Source: Gammaproteobacteria bacterium (GTDB taxonomy: Bacteria; Pseudomonadota; Gammaproteobacteria; Enterobacterales; Permianibacteraceae). From it: DNA of 64,000 bases. The translations under genes were made by a program, and so were the position numbers. The stretch spans positions 62,001 to 126,000 of the forward strand of contig JACPFT010000019.1 of assembly GCA_016182845.1 (NCBI GenBank), read 5' to 3'. Below the pieces are notes generated by a model. That model was not told where the DNA came from. It saw only the letters and a program-made list of their open reading frames with translations, and searched no databases. Shown here in pieces: positions 43,196 to 45,298 of the stretch (the first letter of the stretch is position 1; every line of letters starts with the position of its first letter).

Positions 43196-43216
43196 CACGT
43201 CACAGGGAGAAACACC

Positions 43217-43669
43217 ATGTCGCTCAATATCAAAAGCCTATTTGAACCAGACTTCGAGCGTTACGACGGAGTCCGCAGGATCAACATCTACGCCCTACGG
43301 TTGCTCTTTACGCTGATGCTGGTCTTTCTTGGCAAGGACTCATGGACTCACATCCTGAGTCATGAAACTCCATGGGAGCCCATGGAAGCGATGGCATGGA
43401 GCATTTGGGCCGCTTACGCTTCGTTAGCGCTGCTGGGCCTCCTCCACCCGGTGAAGATGATCCCGCTCCTACTTCTGGAGATTTTCTACAAGGTTCTCTG
43501 GCTGCTAATGGTTGCTTATCCTCTCTGGAGCGACAACCAGTTAGCGGGCTCGTCCGCTGAGGGAATGACCTATGCGTTCTTATGGGTCATTCTCGCCATA
43601 ATCGCCGTGCCATGGGGTTATGTATTGAGAAGCTATCTGATGGGGAGACCCCGCAAGCTAGCCGCCTAA
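43217..43669 (+). CDS. Four-helix membrane protein, paralogue of 41881-42306
   Basis: A 150-aa membrane protein with four hydrophobic segments, sharing with the product at 41881-42306 the segments around LALLGLLHPVKMIPLLLLEI and IAVPWGYVLRSYL. It starts 21 bp after the DUF4386 stop; AGGGAGA precedes the ATG. AT-richer than the core genes. Function unknown. Confidence 0.8.
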   Translation: MSLNIKSLFEPDFERYDGVRRINIYALRLLFTLMLVFLGKDSWTHILSHETPWEPMEAMAWSIWAAYASLALLGLLHPVKMIPLLLLEIFYKVLWLLMVAYPLWSDNQLAGSSAEGMTYAFLWVILAIIAVPWGYVLRSYLMGRPRKLAA

Positions 43670-43725
43670 CCATTCGTCGAGCGGAACACTGAACCGCCCC
43701 GGGCTTCACGGAGGCGGGGTCCCAG

Positions 43726-43990
43726 CCGGTGGCTGTGGCAAGCATAGATTTTTGTTTGGCGTCTAGCGGCCGGGTCTCGCCCCGGCGGGCAAGTTACTTT
43801 CTTTGTGTGCCCAAAGAAAGTAACCAAAGAAATGCAGCCCGGTGCAGCGCCCGGAGCTGACGCTCCGGGTCCCCTGCGCTCCTCATTCGAACCGGGGACC
43901 GCGAACACGGGGCATCCTGCCCTGGTTCGCGGGCGACGCATCCATGCGTCGCCCCTTCGGGTCTTATCCCGGTTCGAACTCCGGTGCTCG
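43726..43990 (+). repeat. Large intergenic repeat, copy A
   Basis: Begins near GGCTGTGGCAAGCATAGA and includes the hairpin TACTTTCTTTG-N-CAAAGAAAGTA (about 43795-43822), GGGTCTCGCCCCG, GCATCCTGCCC and GCGTCGCCCCTTCGGG, ending at TGCTCGGCG. The same ordered set of segments, read on the minus strand, is found at 44150-44405. Confidence 0.8.
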
Positions 43991-44017
43991 GCGCCGCACA
44001 GGGCATCAAAAGATCAC

Positions 44018-44060
44018 CCTCTCCCTAGCCCTCTCCCGTCAAGGGAGAGGGGACAAGAGG
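44018..44060. repeat. CTCTCCC-type palindromic repeat (second site)
   Basis: CCTCTCCCTAGCCCTCTCCC followed by GTCAAGGGAGAGGGGAC forms a hairpin of the same family as 11256-11304. A further copy merges into the G-tract at 44082-44128. Confidence 0.7.
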
Positions 44061-44097
44061 CGCGCACAGCGCGCCGATCAAGGCCCCTCCCCCCTTG

Positions 44098-44128
44098 CGG
44101 GGGAGGGGGGGGGGGGGGGGGAGGGGGG
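44098..44128. repeat. Long guanine tract
   Basis: An almost pure run of G, with one uninterrupted stretch of about 17 G and neighbouring shorter G-runs separated by single A. It sits in the right arm of a CTCTCCC-type repeat. Its length may be unreliable because such runs slip in cells and in sequencing. Confidence 0.85.
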
Positions 44129-44149
44129 ATTTAAGATCCCCTAGGCGCC

Positions 44150-44405
44150 GCCGAGCATCGCAGGGCAAACCGGGAATAGCCCGAAGGGGCGCCCCATGAA
44201 TGGGGCGCGTCTGGCCCGGGGACAGGGATGTCCTCCTGGCCAGACCCCCGGTTTGACCGAGAAGCACAGGGAACCGACGAAGTCGGCAAGCCTCGGGGTG
44301 TGCTTTCTTTGCCTACTTTCTTTGCACAAGCAAAGAAAGTAGGGCGCCCGTCGGGGCGAGACCCGACCGTGTAAGAGCTACGGCAAACTGTGACGCTTGC
44401 CACAA
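44150..44405 (-). repeat. Large intergenic repeat, copy B (inverted relative to copy A)
   Basis: Read on the minus strand it starts TGGCAAGCGTCACAG and shows GGGTCTCGCCCCG, the TACTTTCTTTG/CAAAGAAAGTA hairpin (about 44307-44343), a GTCCCCGGGCCAG stretch, GCGCCCCTTCGGG and TGCTCGGCGGCGCC in the same order as copy A. The copies have diverged between the conserved blocks. Confidence 0.8.
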
Positions 44406-44573
44406 GGCGCCGCCGTCAGTATCTTCCTGCTCAAGGCCAAACCCCCGCGTTTGACCAGATATCGGTCGATTTTAAGACAGCTTATACAGTTGGTAGCTGA
44501 TTGGTCGCGAAAGCGTGGTCTGTCCCCGATTTCCGTGCACTCTAGCCTCGGCTCCGCAGGAGCAGGCGAAGTT

Positions 44574-44678
44574 TTATTCGCGAGAAAGCAGCTTATTCAT
44601 CAAATAAGCGCCGAGCACAGCTCCTGCACCTTGAGCTACGGACAGAACAAAAGGGTTCATGATTAGAAAAACAGGCAT
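44574..44678 (-). CDS. 34-residue hydrophobic peptide
   Basis: An open frame below usual length cut-offs. ATG 44678 is preceded by GGAG at 7 nt spacing. The product is a 34-residue peptide with one likely membrane helix containing a small-residue run (SVAQGAGAVLGAYLM) and a charged end (NKLLSRE). It is the last of three small genes on the minus strand. The Gly/Ala pattern is reminiscent of membrane-active bacteriocins and small regulatory membrane proteins; which of these, if any, is unknown. It is followed by a short stem GCTCC-TGC-GGAGC without a T-run. Confidence 0.6.
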   Translation of the reverse strand: MPVFLIMNPFVLSVAQGAGAVLGAYLMNKLLSRE

Positions 44679-44799
44679 GAGGTATCTCCACTTAGTGCCG
44701 CGAAGCCCGAGGCGGTTCAGCGCGGCATCGTTTCAACTTAGGTTGCGAAGAAATTGTGAGCTTCGGTGTTATATCTGAGTTTGACGTTGTCTTTCAGCT

Positions 44800-45066
44800 T
44801 CAGGTGACCGGAGCCTCGCTCCCTTCGACAGAATCCAAGAGGGCCCTGACTGCCCAAGAAATCTGTGAAGGTAACGCTTGACCATAGGGAAGCAGGACCC
44901 CATGGCTTGCATTCTGGACTTTCATGTAAAGCTTCGCTTCTTCCGGATGGTCGATGGGCACGATTTTTGATATGTGGCAAATAAGTTCAGAATCCTGGGC
45001 TTTCAGTTCAGCGATGAGTGCAGAAAATTGAGCATTATCAACATGTTCGTCGAAAAATAACTTCAC
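44800..45066 (-). CDS. Uncharacterised 88-residue protein of the small-gene island
   Basis: An 88-aa soluble, mildly acidic protein that I do not recognise. It starts at GTG 45066 with GAGGAA 7 nt upstream, a site that overlaps the stop of the 73-codon gene, so the two are translated together. It opens KLFFDEHVDNAQFSALIAEL and contains a basic-polar centre (MKVQNASHGVLLPYGQ) and a helical end (SWAVRALLDSVEG). One cysteine. Base composition is far more AT-rich than the core genome, as for the whole island. Confidence 0.75.
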   Translation of the reverse strand: MKLFFDEHVDNAQFSALIAELKAQDSELICHISKIVPIDHPEEAKLYMKVQNASHGVLLPYGQALPSQISWAVRALLDSVEGSEAPVT

Positions 45067-45076
45067 GGGGTGTTCC

Positions 45077-45298
45077 TCATTTGTTGCTATTGAACGCTTC
45101 GTTAGCTTTGCCGATCCTGTCTAGGTCAACGCTGGTAGCTCGATTCCAGCCCTTGTCGGTCCAGCATCCACTGTCATCGGTGTAGCCTTGGCGCCTGGCC
45201 GCTGCGTTAGTCATATCGGTCAGGTTTTTCAATTTCACCTCCTGTGAGGTTCCTGCGACGGGCAGGTTCGCGGCGAGCAATTTTTTCAGTGAATTCAT
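45077..45298 (-). CDS. Uncharacterised 73-residue protein, first gene of the small-gene operon
   Basis: A 73-aa basic, polar protein with no membrane segment, one cysteine and two tryptophans (DDSGCWTDKGWN). It opens MNSLKKLLAANLPVAG. GGAGAG lies about 10 nt before the ATG. It could be a secreted-peptide precursor, an antitoxin-sized protein or a small regulator; none is supported by a recognised motif. The gene is driven by a near-consensus promoter (45404-45431) with a ~100-nt leader holding a perfect hairpin. Confidence 0.75.
   Translation of the reverse strand: MNSLKKLLAANLPVAGTSQEVKLKNLTDMTNAAARRQGYTDDSGCWTDKGWNRATSVDLDRIGKANEAFNSNK

Follow-up and report, generated by a model that had tools for sequence, protein, structure and literature searches.

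A dispersed inverted-dimer repeat with putative triplex-pseudoknot arms in bacterial genomes

Introduction

A stretch of 64,000 nucleotides of gammaproteobacterial DNA (contig JACPFT010000019.1, positions 62,001 to 126,000), here called the window, contains two intergenic sequences around positions 43726-44405 that face each other as a long imperfect palindrome. A sequence-only reading took them for two inverted copies of a repeat of about 260 bp, and suggested that their shared hairpins point to selection for structure or to a mobile origin. The locus thus raises the question of whether the two sequences are separate repeats or parts of one element, and what structure, if any, is being retained in them. 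Whether selection acts on triplex structures in bacteria has long been open, though triplex-forming repeats have been listed for years.

Results

The two copies are arms of one composite unit

Comparison of the sequence with itself revealed inverted arms at 43767-43832 and 44304-44369, 66 nt long and 82% complementary. Pairing is extended by additional inverted blocks within (43868-43897/44246-44275 and 43933-43961/44180-44208) and by an outer block of 10 nt (43734-43743/44395-44404), and the inverted repeat that had been read from the sequence is real. Each arm measures about 235 bp and contains several hairpins. Its ultra-conserved core is made up, in order, of a hairpin TACTTTCTTTG-N6-CAAAGAAAGTA, two bases, the linker CAAAGAAA, and bases complementary to the hairpin loop. 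The features are as follows.

43769-44367, no strand: the composite unit as a whole, up to and including the outer GC hairpins of its two arms, with near-full-length relatives in the same genome
43769-43786, plus strand: outer GC hairpin H0 of arm A (GCCGGG...CCCGGC; consensus columns 5-22, with compensated changes)
43793-43824, plus strand: hallmark hairpin S1 of arm A, TACTTTCTTTG, loop TGTGCC and CAAAGAAAGTA, with flanking pairs
43825-43832, plus strand: linker CAAAGAAA of arm A, proposed third strand of a triplex
43833-43836, plus strand: post-linker bases of arm A, of which, by sequence, GCA can pair with loop TGC (only 3 pairs)
43837-44004, plus strand: inner multi-hairpin domain of arm A
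44017-44051, minus strand: G/C-rich intrastrand triplex motif of the TM_ECO/BoxC/PIT type in the centre, an exact match to the published pattern (PMC4666352, available text)
44084-44126, no strand: C-rich/G-rich inverted repeat of the centre, including a long G run
44138-44303, minus strand: inner multi-hairpin domain of arm B
44299-44302, minus strand: arm B bases complementary, by sequence, to the S1 loop (4 pairs with 44325-44328)
44304-44311, minus strand: linker of arm B, proposed third strand
44312-44343, minus strand: hallmark hairpin S1 of arm B
44350-44367, minus strand: outer GC hairpin H0 of arm B

A search of the same genome with the 741-bp stretch around the unit as query returned near-full-length units at C18:258861-259442 (80% identity, E 4e-148) and C16:198041-198619 (78%, E 1e-139), and partial units at C23 (E 1e-182), C16, C14 and C2. 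The hallmark hairpin occurred 11 times in this genome and a reversed control pattern 0 times. These E-values and the 11 vs 0 control show that the unit is found again far beyond chance, and the possibility, allowed for in the earlier reading, that the repeat occurs nowhere else is refuted. Three pairs in the genome have the same orientation, with a core spacing of 490-519 bp. From the near-full-length units and the recurring paired cores it follows that copies A and B belong together as the oppositely oriented arms of one composite repeat of about 600 bp (43769-44367). Of the initial interpretation as two separate repeat copies, the inverted pairing thus stands and the separateness does not. 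Single arms also exist, for example at C2:13917 and at many other loci, and one arm at C16:155705 carries extra sequence in its hairpin loop region, i.e., it is a broken copy.

The middle of the unit (44010-44130) consists of other repeat material, and dozens of short matches in the same genome are to this part alone. It includes a G-rich run of nearly 30 bases (44103-44130), for which the unit at C23 has a more complex counterpart; the run may be a slippage or assembly problem. Spurious open reading frames arise from the arm core, such as one encoding VTFFGHTKKVT in the window (43666-43941) and others in further arms, and annotations probably list them as hypothetical proteins. Several units have repeats similar to CGTCCCCGCGCAGGCGGGGACCCAG at their flanks (43689-43740 in the window and the flanks of loci L008, L009 and L011), which resemble the CGTC-tagged REPs in the available text of PMC3733652.

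Convergent pairs of the core occur in distant bacteria

A scan of named genomes with a directional core pattern retrieved at least 119 stretches. Matches among those listed came from Burkholderia, Paraburkholderia, Caballeronia, Neisseria, Neisseriaceae, Lysobacter, Hydrocarboniphaga, Stenotrophobium, Selenomonas-type MAGs, Chitinophaga and a Bacteroidetes MAG, names that derive from 80 of the at least 119 stretches and include MAGs that could be contaminated. In a plasmid collection the core matched Ilyobacter and Pasteurella multocida, and core variants are present on IMG/VR contigs. Three AT-rich viral matches (L193, L195, L197) lack the linker pattern and were judged by eye to be due to chance; the window unit itself had 0 matches in a phage collection.

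Distribution is patchy. Of 120 Burkholderiaceae genomes, 37 had arms, as many as 110 in one genome and in near-equal numbers on the two strands. Arms were also present in 1 of 3 genomes of the window's own family (0 of the 2 others) and in 7 of 397 genomes of a phylum sample, own genome counted. Among the matches listed, 19 of 119 stretches had paired cores less than 1500 bp apart; all were convergent and 366-715 bp apart, and close divergent or tandem core pairs were found in none of the 119.

The linker mirrors the stem

The linker follows the hairpin stem according to a mirror rule: a stem pyrimidine strand T^a C T^b G is accompanied by a linker C A^a G A^b. When the position of the C/G pair or the length of the stem is altered, the linker is altered as its mirror image. 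The rule was first noticed in Paraburkholderia and in IMG/VR contigs, the latter retrieved with patterns in which the linker beyond CAAA was unconstrained. Mirror linkers were present with asymmetric stems of types (2,4), (3,4), (4,2), (4,3) and (5,3), and three more have the mirror plus extra A; among all loci gathered, no asymmetric stem had a direct linker. Grouping of 295 distinct arms by their surrounding sequence gave 57 clusters. Of these, 19 contained asymmetric arms with a mirror or mirror-prefix linker and 0 contained asymmetric arms with a direct one, where arms were counted if their linker could be written as C A^x G A^y and those with a lost linker were left out. Stems of types (4,2) and (2,4) have the same length as the common (3,3) type and differ only in the position of the C/G pair, so the mirror effect is more than length matching.

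A mirrored linker cannot form Watson-Crick pairs with the stem, and a third strand in register is therefore the simplest reading of the rule. Strand exchange was rejected, since the linker is the mirror and not a copy of the purine strand and does not pair with the pyrimidine strand when the two runs differ. The arm core also falls within the ITxF definition of a potential intrastrand triplex (three segments on one strand able to form purine or pyrimidine triplets, stems of 6-15 nt, loops of 1-6 nt), with stem TTTCTTT(G), a loop of 6, a spacer of 5 and the mirror linker. By these sequence criteria the arm core looks like a predicted intrastrand triplex, of which the mirror covariation would be the signature.

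The hairpin loop covaries with downstream bases

The six-base loop is complementary to the bases that follow the linker. Over 47 distinct loop/downstream combinations the mean complementary stretch was 4.47, compared with 3.27 when partners were shuffled (500 shuffles, sd 0.13, maximum 3.64). For covariation, 73 cores with at most two per loop type were aligned out of 89 distinct cores. All 4 loop-downstream pairs change on both sides in this alignment, and the covariation score of 0.262 was reached in 0 of 500 shuffles and lies above that of every slid version. The loop-downstream cells are paired in 71% of cases, indicating that other registers or losses exist; in the window, arm A has only 3 pairs and arm B has 4.

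A consensus fold of the 11 arms from the window's own genome contains 65 pairs, 18 of which have changes on both sides. The covariance analysis that the earlier reading had called for thus gives compensated changes in the inner domain and covarying loop-downstream pairs across 73 distinct cores. Together with the mirror linker, these 18 of 65 compensated pairs and the loop covariation bear out the suggested selection for structure. Each arm is accordingly described as a GC hairpin, an ultra-conserved hairpin with a predicted loop-downstream pseudoknot, and a linker that mirrors the stem.

Mismatches point to the complementary strand

At four positions of outer stem pairs, C.A or A.C on the arm strand was observed in 44 arms and G.T in 0; across five positions the numbers are 45 vs 0. 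Counted by cluster the asymmetry is 7 vs 0, and the signal rests on these 7 clusters, mostly on one stem position and mostly in Burkholderiaceae. Because C.A and A.C on the arm strand are wobble pairs on the complementary strand, this suggests folding of the strand complementary to the arm as written, where the predicted third strand would be pyrimidine (T.A-T and C+.G-C). The asymmetry fits RNA and single-stranded DNA alike. In the inner hairpins no strand bias was present (22 G.T vs 16 A.C), and an RNA wobble bias in that domain was rejected.

Loss, persistence and neighbouring genes

At orthologous sites in P. phymatum the unit is absent at all 3 sites tested, with gaps of 28-84, 82 and about 246 bp where occupied sites measure roughly 0.8-1.2 kb. 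At the third site both outermost repeats are retained around about 60 bp; this relic indicates that at least that absence is a deletion of the palindrome. The three sites have no clear target-site duplication, and their flanks are strongly diverged. In P. caribensis, P. largidicola and their relatives every orthologous site carries the unit, so the elements there look old and mostly static; recent transposition was not seen among close Paraburkholderia. One MBA4 unit has extra arm sequence beside it, and one F2 unit has an IS5-type transposase gene inside. The suggested mobile origin holds up in that the repeat is dispersed, patchy, present in up to 110 arms per genome and absent at the three P. 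phymatum sites, with one absence being a deletion relic and no mobiliser found.

Among the matches listed, the 119 stretches contained no recurrent protein family beside the arms except element-derived spurious reading frames and generic genes, and no recurrent parent element of the MITE type (a transposase with the same ends). All 32 genomes tested contained the Y1 transposase family PF01797, whether or not they had arms, which gives no link to RAYT; in the window's own genome PF01797 matched only below the curated cut-off.

With heuristic calls of neighbouring open reading frames, gene 3' ends face 83 of the 125 arms with a called frame within 600 bp (42 otherwise). Settings with both genes divergent are rare (7 of 125), and in tandem settings the arm direction is balanced (32 vs 28). 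Over 87 composites, the two arms of a composite are more alike than arms of other composites (outer part 0.81 vs 0.66, inner part 0.77 vs 0.64), a difference that is weak or absent within single genomes.

In the Burkholderiaceae genus g85, a single arm lies between two genes with a lipoyl-domain-like start (VPDIGD) in 8 of 8 stretches (L240-L247), always in the gene direction. In some species an orthologous composite of this genus (L230, L233, L234, L235) encloses 1.5-3 kb of cargo, in others none; judged by eye, the cargo includes genes for small membrane and PAAR-like proteins and transposase-like genes.

Discussion

What the unit may be

We favour, with slightly better than even confidence, a dispersed, non-coding and non-autonomous inverted-dimer repeat with putative triplex-pseudoknot arms. 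When the strand becomes single during replication or transcription, the linker would serve as a third strand, placed in the groove of the hairpin stem, and the arm would turn into a triplex locked by the pseudoknot. Less surely, the two folded arms might have served as ends once recognised by an enzyme acting in trans to copy or move the unit, in the manner of REPINs. Most copies may by now be passive, often located downstream of genes and altered by recombination and deletion.

Three other explanations need to be weighed. In one, which we regard as unlikely, the arms act as RNA: an outward transcript through an arm would adopt a U-rich triplex pseudoknot similar to the one in telomerase RNA, and this fold would protect or process the transcript. 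Only the strand read outward tolerates wobble changes; it also holds the pyrimidine third strand, and a pyrimidine third strand is the triplex type that works in RNA. Against it, the single arms of g85 lie with the operon, where the mRNA carries the other strand with the C.A mismatch, the tandem settings are balanced (32 vs 28), and only one promoter-like site is nearby (0.7 expected). No Rfam family reaches threshold: the window has 0 Rfam 15 matches at gathering score and the element only sub-threshold ones, and a known structured RNA was rejected.

Rather improbable is a non-mobile DNA element useful to the host, such as a bidirectional terminator, a pause site or an insulator between convergent genes. 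The adjoining gene 3' ends (83 vs 42), the rarity of both-divergent settings (7 of 125) and the persistence of orthologous copies across species in two genera would fit this. However, region 43200-45200 has 0 terminator-like sites compared with 2.0 expected from shuffles, which led us to reject a terminator, and the occurrence is patchy (0 of the 2 other genomes of the family and, own genome included, 7 of the 397 sampled from the phylum). Earlier work cited in the available text of PMC4666352 describes PIT elements as having neither terminator nor promoter activity. The existence of single arms at C2:13917 and elsewhere would also allow two independent insertions of a single-arm repeat to have landed side by side by chance, which is very improbable. 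The unit recurs as a pair, with convergent pairing at similar spacing in unrelated genera, and over the 87 composites partner arms are more alike (weakly or not at all within single genomes). Because pair orientation is fixed, the two-insertion explanation is largely refuted, and two independent adjacent repeats were rejected.

With a little less than even confidence, we propose that the arm core may be a conserved pseudoknot-locked intrastrand triplex, selected across Pseudomonadota, Selenomonadales, Bacteroidota and Fusobacteriota, which would make it the first bacterial repeat with a covariation-supported third strand and the end-recognition structure of widespread dimeric mobile repeats. 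A mirror third strand in 19 separate clusters provides an evolutionary argument that the triplex itself is retained, and the mirror rule names the exact variants for testing at the bench. The family also joins scattered, probably mis-annotated intergenic sequences of many bacterial groups.

Relation to known repeats and structures

The nearest descriptions of such elements in the literature searched are in the available text of PMC4666352 and PMC3733652, and a description of the A/T-rich arm core was not found there; strings TTCTTTG or AAAGAAA do not occur in the main text of PMC4666352. An earlier listing of the motif, for example in Haemophilus or in the Hoyne and Maher papers of 2000/2002, is possible. 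The TM_ECO/BoxC/PIT elements are potential intrastrand triplex elements (Holder et al., 2015; PMC4666352), and according to the available text a stable triplex of TM_ECO was not seen in vivo. Like the arm core, they consist of a hairpin, a short spacer and a second copy of the purine strand, and they are dispersed and intergenic (PMC4666352). They also form inverted pairs as the unit does, theirs combining type A with type B (PMC4666352). The arm core differs in being A/T-rich, in the pairing of its hairpin loop with a sequence further downstream, and in belonging to arms of about 235 bp with further hairpins. With the TM_ECO test pattern CCCTCNCCC-N3-6-GGGNGAGGG-N3-GGGNGAGGG (PMC4666352), the only match in the window was the centre (44017-44051, minus strand), and the arms did not match. 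The motif was present in 14 of 17 other loci scanned in the own genome, and in 0 of the 119 foreign stretches with an arm core among the matches listed. From its sequence, the arm core resembles an A/T-rich, pseudoknot-locked relative of TM_ECO/BoxC/PIT.

REPs, BIMEs and REPINs (GTAG and CGTC repeats; PMC3733652, available text) are likewise inverted dimers, non-coding, of high copy number and patchy, and the CGTC REPs, as here, have no linked gene. Like REPINs, the repeat is organised as inverted dimers: among the matches listed, 19 of 119 stretches contain a close pair, and every such pair is convergent. However, the arms, at about 235 bp with several hairpins, lie outside the 20-40 bp of a REP palindrome, and the repeat has no association with a Y1/RAYT gene. 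MITEs are non-coding and flanked by inverted arms. The unit is MITE-like in being non-coding, in its inverted arms and in being gained or lost as a whole, and differs in that no parent transposase was found; a clear target-site duplication was not seen in the strongly diverged flanks of the P. phymatum sites. Telomerase RNA forms an H-type pseudoknot whose U-A stem accommodates a U-rich loop in its major groove. The complementary strand of the arm would have the same topology, as a structural analogy only and with no sequence relation. In principle, the nearest counterparts of the repeat are the PIT/BoxC/TM_ECO elements and REPIN-type dimers. Its arm core falls within the definition of a potential triplex, adds a predicted pseudoknot, and departs from REPs in size and RAYT association.
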